DNA of 64,000 nucleotides from Erythroxylum novogranatense. Taxonomy: Eukaryota > Streptophyta > Magnoliopsida > Malpighiales > Erythroxylaceae. Location: NCBI GenBank assembly GCA_029891385.1, contig CM057224.1, positions 39,313,005 to 39,377,004 on the forward strand, given 5' to 3'. A program made the position numbers and the translations under genes. This document shows positions 6,331-45,716 of the stretch, piece by piece (the stretch's first letter is position 1; each line of letters opens with the position of its first letter). Below the pieces are notes generated by a model. That model was not told where the DNA came from and made no database searches. It saw only the letters and a list, made by a program, of their open reading frames with translations.

Positions 6331-6517
6331 GTGAAATCTTACCTGAGCATTTGTATAAGATTGTGATATATGAGATTTTCTGAAATTGTTGCATTTCATA
6401 AAATGCATGCTCAGATAAAGGCGTTGTGACTTGAGTTGTCGGTATCAAGCGCTTGAACGTAAAACTTTGCTCCGTGATATATGATTTGGCACGTATAGTT
6501 ATACTCCGTGATATATG

Positions 6518-6559
6518 GTTGTGTATGGTTATTGTCCCTGTGAGTGGGGACAGTTGACA
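6518..6559 (+). repeat. Left terminal inverted repeat with hairpin, element 1
   Basis: After the GTTGTGTATGGTT terminus comes TTGTCCC...GGGGACAG, a short palindrome able to form a hairpin. The right end has the related TTTGTCTC...GGAGACGGAG. The ends of element 2 carry the same arrangement (CTGTCCCC...GGGGATAG). Confidence 0.65.
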
Positions 6560-7320
6560 AAACAAAGTAATCCTATCCCCCTTGGTTGTTTGGTTGATGT
6601 CCCCGCGTTTATGTCCCTGCCTGCGTTTATATCCCCTGTCTTCGGAGGACAGGGACAAAGAAATTTGCTCCTTCAAAAATCTAAGGACAAAAATTCTTTG
6701 TCCCTGTCTCTGAAACAAAGACATACTCTCCCTCCCAAATTACCCCTCTCCTCTGATATTTCGTCCTTATTTCTCTCTCGCATGCCCTCCTTCGCATCTT
6801 CCAGATTCACTCCTCTCTCACACGCTGGGCTTCTCTCTACGCTTCTCTTTCCCACACTGGGCAACTCTCTCGCACGCTGGGACTCTTCTTCCACTGGTAA
6901 GTTTTTGTTATTTGCTGGAACAATGTCTCTGCCTCCGAAGGTCTCCATTTCTCTGGTTGCGCAAATTGTATATGTGGATTTGTCATCTGTGGAGACCTTC
7001 GGCCATTAGTGGGGTTTGCAGATCTTGAATGGGATCATGTGGATTTCGGTTATAGCTCTTCATCTTGTTGGGTCTTCGGTTATTTTTGTTCTTATACCAG
7101 AATGATGAGAGGTTTTTTGAGCATATTTGTTATTGTAAAATTTGCTGGGTTTTGGATCATTCTCTCATTTCCTTTCCAAAGTTTTAACTTGTTTCTTTGT
7201 TTCTGTGTAGGAATCCTGGGTTGTTATTGATCGGTGATAGGTTGCATTGTTTTTTGATTGAATCTGAGAACCTCATTAGTTATCTCTAAAGTGCTTCTTA
7301 TGTTTCTTTTCACAGGTATG
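6560..7320 (+). other. Conserved leader region of element 1
   Basis: A C/T-rich stretch with repeated 'ctctctc' and 'cttcc' runs at 6720-6900 has a clear homologue on the minus strand of element 2 (about 45700-45200). Both contain 'ctgcctccgaaggtctcc'-like sequence (6930-6950 here). Conservation between copies at the same distance from the terminus suggests a promoter and 5' untranslated leader. An open frame spans it but its residue content is low complexity, so I do not call a gene. Confidence 0.45.
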
Positions 7321-8895
7321 TATGTTGTTCTGAATTGAATCTGCATTATGCTATCATGTTTCTGATTTTTTGTGGGTACTTTGGATTATGCCTTGTGTTG
7401 TGTGAAGTATATATTGGAATTGCATTGGCACTACATTGTGTTGTGTCGTTGTAATTAATTTAGATAGCAACCAATTATGTATGACACATGTAATGTGATG
7501 TTTATGCTTAGGTTTTGGTTGACAATATGTCCAAGCTGTGTTAGTAAAACGGTCATTTTCATTATGTTGTGTAGAAGATAGCAGGAACCTATATTGCATT
7601 TTTTTTCCTTTACGATGACTCTTCAGTTATTACTCCAATCTAACCATCTTTCACTCTTTCATTTGCAATTTCATTATTGGTATTAACCAGCAATAAGTGT
7701 AATAATAACAACCAATTATTAGATAGTTACATCCTACTATGGAATGAGAAATTTCAATTACTCATTAGTGTTATATCATGTAGCTGAAATTCAAACAAGT
7801 TATAATAACACTGAAATAGTAGATGTGTCGCATAAGGGAAATTTTTAGGTTTGATGTTTTCCTCTGTTTATCGTGTTGTTCCAACCAGTAGGTACTCATA
7901 TTATCTTTGAAATTCACTTTAAAGATGTTGAAGATACATAAATATATCTATGAATTGCTTATGTTAGTTATTGCATAATGATTTATGGAAGTAATTAGAG
8001 GTTAAAAAATCCATAAATACACACATGGTCAGCAGAAAAATTCACTATGCCTTTCATGCCCTATCCACACAATTTTTTTTTAGGAACTTAACTTATTGCT
8101 TAGGTGTTAAAGTATTGCGTACAACTAATGGATTGATACTTTCATGGTCAGAATACATTGAAACCATTTTACATGACTATAAAACATGCATAAAGTTGTT
8201 CTAACACCAGTGTCTTCTACTATGCCTTACACCTCAAAGATGCCTCCCTGCTTATGGATTCTAAAATATATTGTCATCAGGTTATTGGCAGGCTTCAGTT
8301 TTTATCTTTTACTCGCTCTAATCCATCAGGTTTGCAGGCTGTTACAATTATACGTATAAATTGCCAGCTTATCCCAAACTATTGCATTTTGAATGCTTGT
8401 GAGGTTAGGCAATACAAGATAGATCCATAAATACCTAATAGTGGTTAAGCCAATTTTCCAAAAGCAAGTTGCATGCCTTTCGGCTTTGGGACCTTATCTT
8501 GACATCCACTGGTTTTTTAAAATATTTTATGTATAGCTAGCTTCATTAAATATTTAAAAAGACTCTTTCTTAGAAGTAAGGCCCTAATATATGAAGAAAA
8601 CTTCCAACCCCATATGAAAGGGTTAACAAAAAATTAGGGGATCCTACTAAGATGTTACGTAGAAAAAGGAGAAACATGTGCAAATGCTCATATACACAGT
8701 CATTTATATACATGTATGTGAAATTCATGGTTGTTAACAAGAAACTTTACAAATGCTCATATACACAGCCCTACCTCAAATACATTGCTTTCTTTAAAAA
8801 TAGAGATTTTAGGAGATTGTCATGAAGATTATGTGATTGTCATAAAGATTAGGTGATACTTATCAAGGTGACCCAGATACAGGGGTAGGAAAGGG
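7321..8895. other. Interior of element 1, no recognisable gene
   Basis: This is where the 5' part of the transposase gene should lie. I see no stretch that reads as the N-terminal helix-turn-helix or the first catalytic Asp region, so that part is deleted or beyond recognition. Confidence 0.4.
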
Positions 8896-9593
8896 AAAAT
8901 ATGGACTAATGTGTTAGGAGTGTGCGATAGGAATTTAAACTTTGTTTATGTTCTTGCTGGATGGGAGGGTTCAGCATCTGATTCAAGGGTTCTGCATGAT
9001 GCTGTTACTATTTACTAGGCGTAATGGACTTCAAGTTCTAATGGGTATGTAAGATAAGAATTATCAGAAATTTGTTTTTTTTTTGAAATGTTTGATTACA
9101 AATACAATAGTAATAGTGTCATTTGTTTATAGGAAACTACTACTTAGTAGATACTGGCTATACCAATGGTCCTGGATTTCTTGCACCTTGTAGGGGCACA
9201 AGATACCACATTCAAGAGTGAGCAAGAGATGGAAGGGCATTTAGGAACCCAAAAGAGCTTTTTAATAAGAGACATTCATCTGCAAGAAATGTCATTCAAC
9301 GTGCATTTGATATGTTGAAAAAAAGATAGAAAATCCTAAAAAATCCATCGTTTTATGCAACAGCCACTCATGTTCACATAATTCTTGCATGCTGCCTTTT
9401 GCACAACTTTATTAGGTTGCATATGACTTCTGATCCAACAGAGGTTACTCCTCTTGAAGCCGAGGATCTGCCAATTAGGGAAGACGCATCTTTGCCCTAA
9501 ATGGTTGATCGTGTTGTGACAACTAATGAATGGAGTCAATGGAGAGAGAATTTAGCTCAGAACATGTTTGAGGAATGGAGAAGCAACTATTAA
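8896..9593 (+). pseudogene. Harbinger (HARBI1-type, DDE_Tnp_4) transposase C-terminal remnant
   Basis: Two blocks join across an apparent intron (donor GTATGT at 9045, acceptor AG at 9131-9132). The first reads through a '[20 protein letters not shown]' stretch (about 8935-9025), the second starts with 'NYYLVDTGYTNGPGF' and ends with 'WSQWRENLAQNMFEEW' near 9590; both are strongly typical of plant PIF/Harbinger transposases. Stops interrupt it (about 9056, 9217, 9328, 9497) and everything before the first block is missing. The residue expected to be the catalytic Glu in the 'RNVIxRAFxMLK' segment is Gln. It cannot encode an active enzyme. Its partner gene follows 500 bp downstream on the same strand. 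Confidence 0.85.
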
Positions 9594-10092
9594 ATTATGT
9601 ACTTTCATTTAGTTTATGTTATGTATATTGAATTGAGGGTTTGTAATGAGATGACTCCTAAACTGTTTAACACTAGGAAGCTGTTCTTTGAATGGTTTGA
9701 GATTCATTCCACCTCTCCTTTTAGAATTATGGCTTCTCCACATTCTCATGTTAACTTCATAGCCTTCCATAAGTCTTATTACTTGAATTAACGGAGAATG
9801 TCAACTAATGTCCAACAATTACAACATATAATTACATAGTGGATAAATTAAATTCTATAACTTTGTTAACATATCATATAATATAAATTTGTTTTTTTAA
9901 TTCATTCAATTAACTGTTATGCTTACTTCCTCTTCTATCCAACTTGATCCTTAATGTTTTAACTTCATTTCATGTTTCTTTTAATTCAATATTGTCTTCG
10001 TTATTTCAATAAAAGTTTCAATGTATGATGCTTAATCATTTATGGAAATGGATTGGAATGGTTTGGGAATTGCATTGCATGGTTTAGTTGCA

Positions 10093-11069
10093 ATGTCAAG
10101 AATGTGGACTGAGGCTTAAACAGAGGAATTTGTGATCTTCATGGAGGAGGTAGTTGTGGCTGGTCATAGAGCTGATAATGGCCAATTTAAGCCTGGTACT
10201 TTCCAACTCCTTGCTAGAATGATGGTTGAGAAGTTTCCTGATTGTGGCATTGACAAGAGGCATGTCAAAAATAAGCACAAAAGGTTGAAGGACAAATATC
10301 AGACAGCCTTTGACATGTTAAACTGCAGTGGGTTTGGTTGGAATGAAGCTAAGCAATGTGTTGAGGTAGACAGCAAGCAAGTGTTGGATGAATGGATGAT
10401 GGTAATTTTTTTAATTGTTGGTTGTTTATAAAAATATCGTAATAATCGTATGTTTGTAATACTGACGTATACTGATGTCTTTTCCAGGGACACCCTAACA
10501 AATATTATACTCCTGGAAAGCCTTTCTTGTTTTACCCAAGACTTGAGTTTGTCTTTGGGAAAGACAGAGCAACAGGTGCAGGTGCTCAGGATGTTGTAGA
10601 TGCAGTTGTTCAACTTGACACTGATGAAACTGAAGGTGAAGAACCAGCTGATCCAGTAGCGTCTGCTGCCCAATTAGATCTAGCAGCCCCCCCACAGGTC
10701 ACTCCTACCCCAACTACTTCAGCCCATGTCATTGGTTCTGTCGCCTCTTCCAGCAACACTGACGAAAACCGACAAAACAAAGGGAAAAGGAAGATGACGG
10801 ATATTGAAGTATTAGAAAACGTTGCTGCCTCATTTGTTCTTGCTATTGACAGTGGTAAAGAAAATGCTAGGATCATTGCTGATGCCATTGTAAGACTGCA
10901 TGGGTCTAAGCTAGGTGATGAGCTTGGAAATTTAGGCTTCTCCACTGAAGAAGTTGTCATGACTGCAAGGATATTCTCTAAGAATGTTCATGCTGGGAAT
11001 CTTTTCTGGGATCTAAATGTAGACCAGAGACTGGCTTATGTGAGGAGCCTGTTAGATGATGATGTTTGA
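10093..11069 (+). CDS. Myb/SANT-like DNA-binding protein of the Harbinger element (ORF1-type)
   Basis: In PIF/Harbinger elements this protein binds element ends and helps bring transposase to DNA. Exon 1 runs to 10401 and exon 2 from 10488 (GT donor at 10402, AG acceptor at 10486-10487); the frame joins cleanly. The N-terminal part has the plant Myb_DNA-bind_3 signature: 'ADNGQFKPGTFQLLARMM', then 'KNKHKRLKDKY', then 'GHPNKYYTPGKPF' after the junction and 'FGKDRATG'. The C-terminal half is an acidic linker plus a helical tail ending 'AYVRSLLDDDV'. An in-frame TAA at 10117-10119 lies between the family-like start ATG (10093) and the domain, so either the gene is disabled or translation starts at ATG 10141, giving about 280 residues with a slightly shortened domain. 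Confidence 0.75.
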
Positions 11070-11348
11070 CTTGATGTTTTATTTCTTAATTAGTACGTTG
11101 TGATCTGACACTTTCTAGCTGACCATTTTTTGTGGAGTTATTGCCTTTATAGTAGCTTAATAGGAAAGCTAGGATTTGTACTGTTATGAAACTGGGATTG
11201 TGATGTTGACTTTGTTTTGATGAACTGTTGACTTTGTTTGTTCAGTTGACTATTTATGATCAATGGTTGGTTTACAAACTTCTTAATGTTTGTCATTTTT
11301 CTGCGTTTATGAATGATGATAATATGATTCATTTTCAGGTACCTAAAT
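11070..11348 (+). other. Short spacer with conserved splice acceptor before the third gene
   Basis: A 'TTTTCAG' at 11332-11338 sits eleven bases before the next ATG. Element 2 keeps 'TTTTTCAG' in the same place. This suggests that the third gene has an untranslated first exon or is spliced onto the upstream SANT transcript. Confidence 0.4.
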
Positions 11349-11714
11349 ATGGGTAGATACAACTTCTATGTGGTCTTTGTTAGACGTCAAGTTGGTATTT
11401 TTACAAATTGGGATGATGTCAAATTGGCTACTGAGGAGTTTCCTAATGCTCGATTCAAGGGGTATCAGACATTAGATGAAGCACAAAGTGCTTATGTCAT
11501 GGATCTATATAGGCTGACTCGTCGCATTGAAGACATTGCTCCTACCGCCAATGAACCATCCTTTATGCCGAATCCATTTACACTTCCAACAAATGAACAA
11601 GTCAATGAAGTTTCAACTTTGCAAACAAACATAGCATGGAGTCAAGCATTTTTACTTATAGCCATTGAAGTCATTTTAGGGATTATTGTTAAGGACATTA
11701 TTAATAAATTTTAA
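11349..11714 (+). CDS. Hybrid-binding-domain protein with C-terminal membrane anchor (third Harbinger gene)
   Basis: 121 aa. Residues about 3-49 match the RNase H1 N-terminal / caulimovirus viroplasmin-type domain, a small fold that binds RNA-DNA hybrids or double-stranded RNA: 'YNFYVVFVRRQVGIFTNW' then 'NARFKGYQTLDEAQSAY'. No RNase H catalytic domain follows. After a Pro/Asn/Thr-rich linker (50-98), residues about 99-119 are almost purely hydrophobic ('FLLIAIEVILGIIVKDII') and end the protein, as in tail-anchored membrane proteins. The homologue in element 2 (43712-44080, minus) is about two-thirds identical by eye and equally intact. It lies between the SANT gene and the right terminus on the same strand. 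Its role in transposition is unknown; the domain call is confident, the function is inference. Confidence 0.8.
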   Translation: MGRYNFYVVFVRRQVGIFTNWDDVKLATEEFPNARFKGYQTLDEAQSAYVMDLYRLTRRIEDIAPTANEPSFMPNPFTLPTNEQVNEVSTLQTNIAWSQAFLLIAIEVILGIIVKDIINKF

Positions 11715-11933
11715 GGCCTTAATATATGTTGAACCAAATATGACATTAGTTCCAATAATGCTTAGATGTGTTTTTTCAATGTATGTTGAACCTATTATGT
11801 AATTAATTCTATGAATGTATGTTGAACCTATTAAATAATTAATTCTATGAATGCTTAGATGTTGTATTTGAATGTATGTTGACCTTATTGTTACTAATTT
11901 TGTATTGATTATCATTAAAATTAATATTAGAGT
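11715..11933 (+). other. 3' flank of the third gene with diverged short repeats
   Basis: The phrase 'atgtatgttgaacc' recurs at about 11723, 11778, 11817 and 11873. Element 2 has the mirrored version (for example 'ttcaacatacattcat' near 43600), so this 3' region belongs to the element. Confidence 0.5.
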
Positions 11934-12375
<442 letters not shown>

Positions 12376-12559
12376 CTTAATTTGAAATTGTTGTTATTAT
12401 TATTTGTTAATTTTTAACTAATATAAATCATTCGTAATAAAATTATCAATGAATTACATATTTCTAATCATATTAAGAACCAAAGGCATTTTCGTCATTA
12501 GCACAATTTTTTCGTTCTGTCCACTACAACCAAACATATTCTGTCCTCGAGACGGAGAC

Positions 12560-12680
12560 AGTTTTTTTGTTCTGTCTACTACAATCAAACACCGTTCTGT
12601 CTTCAATATTTGTTCCATTCTGTCTCTAAATTTTGTTCGTTCGCCTCCGTCTCCGACCGAGACAAAGAACCATACGCAAC
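12560..12680 (-). repeat. Right terminal inverted repeat and subterminal repeats, element 1
   Basis: The outermost bases (reverse strand) pair with the left terminus with few mismatches. Inside it, the motif GTTCTGTC followed by ACTACAA(C/T)CAAACA occurs twice (about 12513-12550 and 12570-12600), a direct subterminal repeat that may be a transposase or SANT-protein binding array (inference). Confidence 0.6.
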
Positions 12681-13298
12681 AGATATTTCGATCGAGCCCA
12701 ATGGGTCAGTATTTGTATATGTGATAGGCACTCGGTCACTAAATTAGTAATGAATGTGGAGTCTCATATGCATCTGTATGTGTTTATATATGATCTTATT
12801 CGCATTGATAAAATGATATGCCATGACAGTGCGAGTATTTGACATATTCATGTTCTGTATATAATTTCTGTATGTGAATCTGGTGAAATCATCAATAATG
12901 GTTCACTCATTGAGTTCGCAAAACTCATAAAAATTGCAATGTAATTTTTCAGGTACGAGACAAGAGACTTAGTGTTTATTCTAGATTAAAAGATCGTTTT
13001 GGACTAAGTTATGGCTAAGAGGTCTGTCAGTTGACGTCAGAGAGTTATAGCTTTATGTTGTAGTTTTTACTTGAACCTGTATGAGGTTTTGTAAATATTT
13101 GTTTAATGGAGACAATATATACTTTGTGAGTGAATGCAATAAATGGTTTTAATATTTGATGATTTCTGATTATGTTAGATGATGCCATGTGTAAGTTGGA
13201 TATGTTTTTGCTCTAACATGTCATTATCATAGGATATGTACTTGAATACTCTTGAATGTTTGGGTATGTACCTTATGGTAGTGGGATGTTGCATTAAT

Positions 13299-42626: not shown

Positions 42627-42879
42627 GCGTTGCGTTTAGTTGCTGTCTCCAGTAGCTACAGACAGAAAGAACAGGACAGAAAGAAACAAAAACTAGAAAC
42701 AGAGAGATGTTTGGTTGCGGTTGACATATGAGAACTGCTCTCTTATGTGAGAATGTGTTTGATTAAGAGACGAAAACAAATATAATACAAATGATTTAAT
42801 ATACCCAGTCCTTAATATGATTAGAAATATGTAATTCATTGATACTTTTATTATGAATGGTTTGTATTAGTTAAAAGTT

Positions 42880-43500
42880 AACTTAGAATAATAATAACAA
42901 TTTTAAATTAATCACGAATAACATTAATAATAATTTTATTATTATTTTAATAACAAAAATAATAATAACCAAACATAAATAAGTGAAAAAAGTTTAATAA
43001 TAATAAATTTGAATAATAATAAATACAAATTATATAATAATTTGTAATAATCATAATTAGACATAATAATAATTTTATTACCATAATATCGTTGTAAAGA
43101 GAAAATGGATGCGGTACTAATACTAATAATACGTTAATGCGACTACTACTACTACTACTAATAATAATAATAATAATAATAATAAATTGATAATAACAAA
43201 AAACAAAATGTACGATAACATTAATAATTTAATTAATAATAACAATATTTAATACAAAATTATTGTCATTAATAATAATAATAACAATAATAATAATAAT
43301 ACAAATTTATTAATAAGTTAATAATAACAATAACTAATACAAAATTATTGTTAATAATAATCATAAAATAATAATAATAACAAAGTTTATAATACATTTA
43401 ATAATAAGAATAATAATAATTGTAATAAGAAATATATTATAATAATATTGATAATAATAATTTTGGACCAATAATAATAATATTAATATTAATGATATTC
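42880..43500. repeat. AAT-rich microsatellite of element 2
   Basis: Imperfect AAT/AAC repeats over about 600 bp with an (ACT)6 run at about 43142-43160 next to a pure AAT run. This is the reverse complement of the TTA/TAG arrangement in element 1 at the equivalent place. Confidence 0.85.
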
Positions 43501-43711
43501 AATACAAAATTAGTAACAATAGGTCAACATATATTCATATACATCATCTAAGTATTCATATACATCATCTAAGCATTCATAGAATTAATTACATAATAGC
43601 TTCAACATACATTCATATAAGTAATTACATGATAGGTTCAACATTTATTAAAAAAAACATTTAAATATTACTGTTCATAATAACATAATTGGTTCATCAT
43701 ACATAAAGGCC

Positions 43712-44080
43712 TTAGAATTTATTAATAATGTTTTGAATAATCATTCCCAAAATGACGCCAATGGCTATGAGTAAAAATTCATGAGCCCATTCTGTGTTTG
43801 TCTGCAAAGAGGAATCTGCATTGAGTTGTTCATTTGTTGGTTGTGAGACTGGAGTCGGCATAGAGGAGGAGGGTGCATTGGCGGTGGGGACAATGTCTAC
43901 ATTGCGTTGACCCGGCCTATATGAGCTCGTGGCATAAGCAGTTTGTGCTTCATCCAATGTCTGATATCCCTTGAATCGAGCATTCAGAAATCCCTCAGTC
44001 GCTTCTCTGACATCATCCCAATTGGTAAAAATATCAACTTCACGTCCAGAAAAGACCACATAAAAATTGTATCGGCCCAT
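43712..44080 (-). CDS. Hybrid-binding-domain protein with C-terminal membrane anchor, element 2 copy
   Basis: 122 aa, no stop or frameshift. Residues 3-49 read 'YNFYVVFSGREVDIFTNW' and 'NARFKGYQTLDEAQTAY', i.e. the RNase H1 N-terminal / viroplasmin-type domain with the family's FSGR motif better preserved than in element 1. The middle is a Pro/Ser/Thr-rich linker and residues about 100-120 ('FLLIAIGVILGMIIQNII') form a single hydrophobic segment at the very C-terminus. A splice-acceptor-like TTTTTCAG lies just upstream of the ATG, as in element 1. The two copies agree at roughly two-thirds of residues, with the domain core, 'PTNEQ' and the hydrophobic tail best kept. It survives although the element has lost its transposase. 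Confidence 0.8.
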   Translation of the reverse strand: MGRYNFYVVFSGREVDIFTNWDDVREATEGFLNARFKGYQTLDEAQTAYATSSYRPGQRNVDIVPTANAPSSSMPTPVSQPTNEQLNADSSLQTNTEWAHEFLLIAIGVILGMIIQNIINKF

Positions 44081-44258
44081 ATTTTAGAACCTGAAAAAGA
44101 ATCATATTATCATCATCCATACACGCAAGAAAATGGCAAACAATAAATAGTAAATAAACCAAACATTCATAAGTAAGATAATTGTTCAAACATCCATCAT
44201 TCAAGTTCACATGTACCAACTTCCATCACCATGGAAATTAAAGAAACAATACAGCAAG

Positions 44259-44405
44259 TCATATGTCATCATCTAAAAGGCTCCTAACATAAGCATGTTT
44301 AACTTCTGTTGGTAAACCCCAGAGCATAGCCCTTAACTTAGCATGCCTCCCGAATATCTTCCCAACCCTGACAATTTCGTCAACTGCGAAGCCCAACTTA
44401 TTACT
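44259..44405 (-). pseudogene. 3' end of the Myb/SANT-like gene, element 2
   Basis: On the minus strand 'KLGFAVDEIVRVGKIFGRHA' leads to 'HAYVRSLLDDDI' and a stop (44261-44259). The last residues match element 1 ('AYVRSLLDDDV'). The DNA-binding part is deleted. Confidence 0.75.
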
Positions 44406-45183
44406 TTATTAGTATAAACATTCCTTTGCATTCGGAATGAAATTTGAAGGTTCAAAAAAATATATGACTTTAATAAGTAAATGTATGTAGTCATAATTCC
44501 CAACAAACCACAATTTATATAAAAAAATGCTGCCCATCCAAATTAGATGAAACATCTATACGCAGTGTTTAATTTCAAGTCTAAATCAGCTCAAACTCAA
44601 TAGCGTTTGGTTCCTATCTTAGAAGTTATTACAAACACAGCAGACAACAAGTGATCCACATCTTTGTTTATTACAATAACAACAAACAAGTGACCGACAT
44701 ATAGTCACAACAAACAAGTGATCCACGTCTTTGTTTCAATTTGTTTGTGTCAATTTATAACGCATGCATGCAAGTGTTTGACAACTGAGACTTCTTTGTT
44801 TCTATTTGAACAACTTGTACCCATCTGAGTAACTACAGATGGACCCCTAAAATTCAAAAAATAATGATCATTTAACCCCTGCAAATTTGAACAATATAAC
44901 AGCATGTAAGTCACTAGATTTATCTAATTAAAACTTCAAAAATTGTATTCTACTTTAATCTCTGTAATAACCCAACAAATATGCTATCACGATAGCATTA
45001 CCTAAAGTTGTCAAACATTCTCACATATATGATAGCATAATGCAGATTAATCTCAGATAAAAGGAATTACCTGTTAACAGAAACACAAGAAATTCTTTGG
45101 AGCTTGAACAACCTCACACCGATGAACAAAAACTCAGCCTATTTAAACAGAAAAAAAGACAAATATTACGAGCTAAAAGGAAA
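44406..45183. other. Interior of element 2
   Basis: AT-rich sequence left after the internal deletion; 44640-44730 has a direct repeat of a phrase 'acaacaaacaagtgatccac'. No gene. Confidence 0.4.
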
Positions 45184-45716
45184 TCACTGGATGACACAAT
45201 AAAAAAATGTCGATCTGCAACCATCAAGCATAACGCATTTTTGACCCCACATTCCAAACAGAGAAGAAGAACACTTGCGTATGGACACCTTCGGAGGCAG
45301 CAACAATTTTTTCGAAAATATACAAAAACTTACCAGTGAAAGAAGAGTCCCAGCGTGTGACAGAGAAGCGTTCAGACAAGCCCACCGTGCGAGAGACGAG
45401 TGAATCTGGGAAGATGCGAAGGAGGGCGTGGGAGGGAGCAGTGGATCTGGGAAGATGGGAAGGACGGCATGCGAAAGAGAAAGAAGGGCAAGAGTTTCAG
45501 AAGAGAGGGGTAATTTTGAGAGGAACGCAACGTCTTTGTTCGGTAGACAGGACACAAATTTTTTATCCTACGATTTTCGAGTGGACAGATATCATTGTCC
45601 CTATCTTCCGGAGTCAGGGGACAAAAACGCAAAGATGTGAACCAAACGCTAACAAGGGATATGATTTTGTTGTTTTGTTTACTATCCCCGTACCTGGGGA
45701 CAGTAAACTGCGTAGA
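45184..45716 (-). other. Conserved leader region and terminus of element 2
   Basis: Homologous to 6530-7010 of element 1 (C/T-rich leader, palindromic GGGGACAG terminus). Confidence 0.55.

Follow-up and report, generated by a model that had tools for sequence, protein, structure and literature searches.

A probable third gene, encoding a hybrid-binding domain and a likely tail anchor, in a PIF/Harbinger transposon family of Erythroxylum novogranatense

The 64,000-nucleotide stretch of Erythroxylum novogranatense DNA considered here (assembly GCA_029891385.1, contig CM057224.1, positions 39,313,005 to 39,377,004 of the forward strand; hereafter the window) holds a decayed PIF/Harbinger transposon containing an intact frame, ORF3 (open reading frame 3), which runs from ATG to TAA over 121 amino acids. 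ORF3 lies on the same strand as, and downstream of, a DDE_4-type transposase remnant and a Myb/SANT gene (Table 1), just as the original prediction had described. Both neighbours are broken: the remnant carries three stops in its second piece, and the Myb/SANT gene, the splice sites of which were read from the sequence, has an in-frame stop near its start. The window copy is hence dead as a transposon, although ORF3 is open. Comparison across the genome, detailed below, indicates that ORF3 is very probably a genuine third (accessory) gene belonging to a large PIF/Harbinger family, the candidate copies of which number in the hundreds. A fusion of Myb and ORF3 was considered as well and ruled out, the frames being separate.

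The N-terminal portion had been assigned to the RNase H1 N-terminal/Cauli_VI type, and a Pfam profile search bears this out, with PF01693 (Cauli_VI, RNase H1 N-terminal domain) matching residues 6-47 at E 2.5e-13 and 50.5 bits against a cut-off of 21. PF01693 is the sole Pfam match in the 121 residues up to E 10, with no RNase H catalytic domain. The hybrid-binding domain of human RNase H1 (PDB 3bsu, a complex with RNA/DNA) matches ORF3 at E 3.6e-6, and at 4.5e-7 with a 17-row ORF3 profile. Hybrid-binding domains bind RNA-DNA hybrid and double-stranded RNA (dsRNA). The domain is followed by a linker predicted to be disordered, and then by a hydrophobic C-terminus.

This C-terminus had been put at 21 residues; its hydrophobic nature stands, but a length of about 16 residues describes the core better (99-114, QAFLLIAIEVILGIIV; mean Kyte-Doolittle value 2.58), with seven residues remaining after it. 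Across 33 rows, comprising 32 genome copies and a database protein, P0002, the most hydrophobic 16-mer is C-terminal in every case, representing a single, though short, hydrophobic segment near the end of the protein. In 15 copies (L018 left out) the tail hydrophobicity was kept at the observed level in 0 of 3000 random-substitution simulations, a result obtained on copies selected for having an open frame. Thus, the C-terminus is likely a tail anchor as read from sequence, though with a short core. Alternatively, ORF3 could be a soluble nucleic-acid binder with a C-terminal helix that serves oligomerisation rather than membrane insertion. The core of only about 16 residues, a GxxxG motif in 25 of 33 tails and a charged residue within the core of 4 of 32 genome copies (W1, L019, L035 and L038) agree with such an arrangement; at position 107 the window protein itself has Glu, in contrast to the Gly seen in most of 17 aligned copies. 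High mean hydrophobicity combined with a low hydrophobic moment (0.01-0.29) in 33/33 rows is however what membrane helices display, and we regard the soluble form as unlikely.

To define the extent of the family, the ORF3 protein was searched against its own 1.30-Gb genome, which gave 935 candidates; the best 150 were scored, yielding 153 matches, window copy included, and ORF3 is therefore not a product of chance. All 150 listed matches, again with the window copy among them, reach E 1e-36 or better, and 95 lack an internal stop. Sorted by identity to the window ORF3, stop-free frames make up 11 of 29 listed matches at identities of at least 80% and 17 of 40 at 70-79%, as compared to 50 of 61 at 65-69% and 17 of 20 at 60-64%; the subfamily of the window has therefore decayed, while others are better kept. 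A genome search with PF01693 returned 1336 candidates, the best 150 of which were scored, all above the cut-off. A chance frame was accordingly rejected on the PF01693 match together with the copies across the genome. In the protein database, the single ORF3 sequence found no match at E 0.001, and the 17-row profile recovered one, P0002, among 2132 candidates. P0002 is a 119-residue protein, 43% identical to ORF3, encoded on a 2748-bp contig from another source. Because it has the same layout at nearly the same length, proteins of this kind probably occur in other genomes as well. A search of viral contigs for an ORF3 relative found none.

We then read 32 loci: two in the window (W1 and W2), a group of 20 and a group of 10 with 61-72% identity, the 30 non-window loci having been chosen for open frames. 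Myb sequence lies directly upstream of ORF3 in 25 of the 32, namely in W1, in W2 (as a C-terminal remnant), in 14 of the 20 and in 9 of the 10; in L025 only the C-terminal part of Myb is present. Within the group of 20, 13 loci gave transposase matches, with just 17 residues covered in two cases. Five of the 32 are of Mutator-like element (MULE) type (L023, L024, L026, L027 and L041, the last by similarity and tree only), and the element type of L012 and L021 was not assigned. Two of the copies, L009 and L010 (C6 near 7.04-7.06 Mb), lie about 12.5 kb apart and share 97% identity along 5.8 kb that extends into the upstream sequence; they seem to have arisen by segmental duplication of the locality and not by two separate insertions.

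The linkage was also assessed from listed coordinates, transcribed by hand, with 271 ORF3/PF01693 loci formed as the union of the two best-match lists. An ORF3/PF01693 locus is located 0-3 kb downstream on the same strand for 63 of 150 listed Myb matches, 60 of these at a distance of 958-1354 bp; none of the 150 has such a locus on the opposite strand within 3 kb, where 0.05 would be expected by chance. Similarly, 66 of 150 listed transposase matches are followed by a locus within 0-5 kb, at a distance of 1396-2269 bp in 63 cases, against one upstream and none on the opposite strand. Unpaired matches often proved to have ORF3 as well: among 12 drawn at random from the 87 unpaired listed Myb matches, 9 have it, some broken, and of 6 unpaired transposase matches that were read (8 drawn at random from 84), 4 show it, 3 broken or partial. 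Extrapolating from these small samples, ORF3 is or once was present in roughly 80-85% of these Harbinger copies. Viewed from ORF3, a Myb or transposase match among those listed precedes at least 105 of the 271 loci. The original prediction of a third gene adopted by the element is thereby upheld as to its Harbinger placement, also when its proposed test, whether matches of this type sit in Harbinger elements, is applied genome-wide; a single odd adoption is ruled out by the downstream pairing with Myb and transposase across the genome, and ORF3 instead appears as a regular third gene of the family.

Selection on ORF3 was estimated as the ratio of non-synonymous to synonymous substitution (dN/dS) by the Nei-Gojobori method. 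In the same 11 copies the Myb exon gave 0.25 and ORF3 0.31, and in the same 7 copies the transposase gave 0.42, ORF3 0.38 and the ORF3 tail 0.25. Eleven more divergent ORF3 copies (median dS 0.35) returned a median of 0.47, distributed as 0.24 for the domain, 0.68 for the linker and 0.60 for the tail. These values point to purifying selection on ORF3, like that on the neighbouring Myb and transposase genes.

Several observations do weigh against a membrane-tethered, selected Harbinger gene. Among the matches listed, 76 strong PF01693 matches have no Harbinger partner, and these may represent further element types or host genes. The ORF3s of the MULE clade have an internal dN/dS of 0.68, some MULE-Harbinger pairs reach 0.9-1.0, and the W2-L021 pair stands at 1.04. 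To these are added the charged residues within some tail cores and the choice of open frames for the tail simulation. As a separate observation, several of the partnerless PF01693 matches have longer open frames, up to 174 amino acids. The suggestion that ORF3 is not an ordinary host gene accordingly gains from the Harbinger placement and the purifying selection and loses by the 76 matches without a listed partner; an ordinary lone host gene is not supported, with those 76 as a possible exception. A related possibility is that a host gene was captured long ago and has since been hitch-hiking, spared decay only by the youth of the subfamilies. According to a review, DNA transposons often capture genes, and a further report places a PF01693 gene within a fungal Helitron (PMC4289320); the MULE-clade ratio would fit as well. 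A domain dN/dS of 0.24 at a median dS of 0.35, an ORF3 ratio level with those of Myb and transposase when identical sets of copies are compared, and retention in most of the family nevertheless render a mere passenger very unlikely.

The arrangement upstream of ORF3 hints at how it may be expressed. Near the left end, a CT-rich leader ends in a GTAAG donor in every one of nine aligned copies, which represent three structural classes and are those in which the leader had been located, and an acceptor AG directly precedes ORF3 in 18 of 22 copies and then in 10 of 10 further ones. From these sites we infer a transcript in which the leader is spliced to ORF3. The short Harbinger derivative W2, in which no transposase match was found, and the MULE copies both lack the Harbinger transposase, yet leader, intron edges and ORF3 are kept.

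The MULE-type loci extend the distribution beyond Harbinger. A single 60-base query, taken from these copies themselves, matches L026 and L027 at either end in opposite orientation; the right ends match at 96.7% over 60 bases and at 56 of 56 bases, respectively. The flanking duplications, read by eye, are AAACAATTT (9 bp) and CTTTTGTATT (10 bp), and L027 with its continuation L029 encodes a MULE transposase on the other strand (PF10551, 5.1e-9). The capturing element hence displays a MULE transposase, terminal inverted repeats and duplications of 9 and 10 bp, within the 9-11 bp expected of MULEs; the right end of L023 was not found within the stretch read. In a midpoint-rooted tree, which includes one row with a frame fault and a very long branch (L042), all five MULE-type loci have ORF3s that fall into a single clade (100/96) among those of Harbinger elements, and these loci also hold Harbinger leader sequence. 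The simplest reading would be one capture of ORF3, from Harbinger to MULE. Further to what was originally predicted, then, short Harbinger derivatives keep ORF3 without the other genes, and a MULE family has captured it. The observation is stronger than first claimed; the membrane-tethered nucleic-acid-binding role is put forward as a hypothesis.

How might such a protein act? A message joining the leader exon to ORF3 would skip the other two genes, and the product may insert as a tail-anchored protein in the endoplasmic reticulum or nuclear envelope, where it could bind dsRNA or RNA-DNA hybrid from element transcripts. Held at the membrane, it could shield dsRNA or R-loop RNA of the element from being diced and from directing methylation, and such evasion of host silencing may help the element stay expressed. 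A precedent for an anti-silencing gene carried by a DNA transposon is VANC, as the literature portrays it. We advance the anti-silencing step, taken alone, as a tentative possibility.

The main rival to anti-silencing is a mechanical role in transposition, with ORF3 anchored at the nuclear envelope, where it would hold either element DNA that bears a hybrid or the complex of transposase and Myb while excision or reinsertion takes place. A constraint on ORF3 close to that on transposase and Myb is what a machine part would show, and a hybrid-binding domain suits R-loops at transcribed ends; moreover, ANKLE2, a membrane protein with a related domain, is established as acting in nuclear envelope disassembly and reassembly. 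On the other hand, Harbinger elements with only two genes are able to transpose although they have no protein of this kind, according to two reports (PMC2836001, PMC9710019). In the MULE, ORF3 accompanies an unrelated transposase, which suits a general benefit more readily than membership in one particular transposition complex. We consider the mechanical role doubtful. Returning to silencing, the fullest form of the idea makes ORF3 a portable membrane-tethered hybrid/dsRNA-binding silencing antagonist, which is a regular Harbinger gene, is kept by gene-poor derivatives and was acquired by a MULE as a module shared between superfamilies; we judge it doubtful as a whole.

A third gene under selection that combines an RNA-duplex-type domain with a membrane-like anchor would imply that something which some PIF/Harbinger elements need, or use against the host, has so far been overlooked; one small protein would also offer a way to test how DNA transposons and RNA-directed silencing contend with each other. 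Finding ORF3 in a MULE suggests that transposon superfamilies share genes. A three-gene Harbinger element was not described in the literature searched, which was covered by titles and abstract openings and with most subscription papers outside it; because this coverage is partial, the evidence of novelty is weak.

Regarding the elements themselves (Table 1), the ends of the window element were positioned by eye to within a few bases; they pair as imperfect inverted repeats with an alignment score reached in 0 of 500 shuffles. The test is weaker in other copies, with 9/500 for L019, 9/500 for L015 and 44/500 for W2. Candidate 3-bp target-site duplications are ATA/ATA for the window element and L019 and AAA/AAA for L015, with ends hand-placed to within a base. 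L015, a related copy, matches PF13359 (8.5e-17) and also PF04827 (Plant transposon protein). Long ATT and AGT repeats occupy window positions 11940-12420, between ORF3 and the right end, and A+T-rich trinucleotide repeats likewise occur 3' of ORF3 in several other copies.

Table 1. Elements and their parts in the window, and MULE copies elsewhere in the genome.
Feature	Position	Strand	Basis or remark
Decayed PIF/Harbinger element, ~6.2 kb	6516-12682	+	homology with other copies ends here; inverted ends
Left terminal repeat, imperfect	6516-6545	+	end alignment, shuffle test
CT-rich leader region, inferred 5' exon	6770-6896	+	ends in splice-donor-like site CACTG/GTAAG
DDE_4-type transposase remnant, broken	8893-9590 (pieces 8893-9009, 9132-9590)	+	similarity
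Myb/SANT gene, inferred exons 10132-10401 and 10488-11069	10132-11069	+	PF12776, E 1e-9
Start of inferred ORF3 exon	11339-11348	+	after splice-acceptor-like TTTTCAG ending at 11338
ORF3 (121 aa) with hybrid-binding domain at residues 6-47, a linker and a hydrophobic C-terminal helix at 99-114	11349-11714	+	
Right terminal repeat, imperfect	12653-12682	+	end alignment, shuffle test
Short Harbinger derivative W2: leader region, Myb C-terminal remnant, ORF3, right end	42627-45710	-	left end approximate
W2 ORF3, 122 aa, intact	43712-44080	-	67-68% identical to window ORF3; PF01693, E 1e-13
MULE with captured ORF3 unit	L026 5213-10000 with L030		
MULE with captured ORF3 unit	L027 5939-10000 with L029		

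Compared with known systems, the family shares its DDE_4 transposase, separate Myb/SANT gene and inverted ends with PIF/Harbinger. Such elements are described with two protein-coding genes in one report (PMC9710019), whereas the ORF3 family has a third, selected gene; they also mobilise Tourist-like miniature inverted-repeat transposable elements, as another states (PMC2836001). The likeness to the RNase H1 hybrid-binding domain (PF01693; human 3bsu) is one of sequence and, more weakly, of fold. Tyr7, Trp21, Phe36 and Lys37 of ORF3 align with Tyr29, Trp43, Phe58 and Lys59 of human RNase H1, residues with a role in binding; ORF3 differs in having Gly in place of Lys60, and a linker and hydrophobic tail in place of the catalytic domain. 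In bacterial RNase LS proteins, the domain has been proposed to target RNA in RNA-DNA duplexes. ANKLE2 is likewise a membrane protein with a related domain, but it is an animal host protein with an N-terminal transmembrane segment and LEM and ankyrin domains. Caulimovirus P6/viroplasmin, after which PF01693 is named, has only that domain in common with ORF3, which lies among transposon genes and has no further viroplasmin match by Pfam. The capE gene of Helitron HELPO1.3 from Pleurotus ostreatus is also a PF01693 gene in a DNA transposon, but it is described as having been captured by a single long copy of this fungal Helitron and not as a regular family gene (PMC4289320). Finally, VANC of the Arabidopsis VANDAL elements, which are MULEs, is an accessory gene beside the transposase of a DNA transposon; it acts through sequence-specific hypomethylation of related elements.
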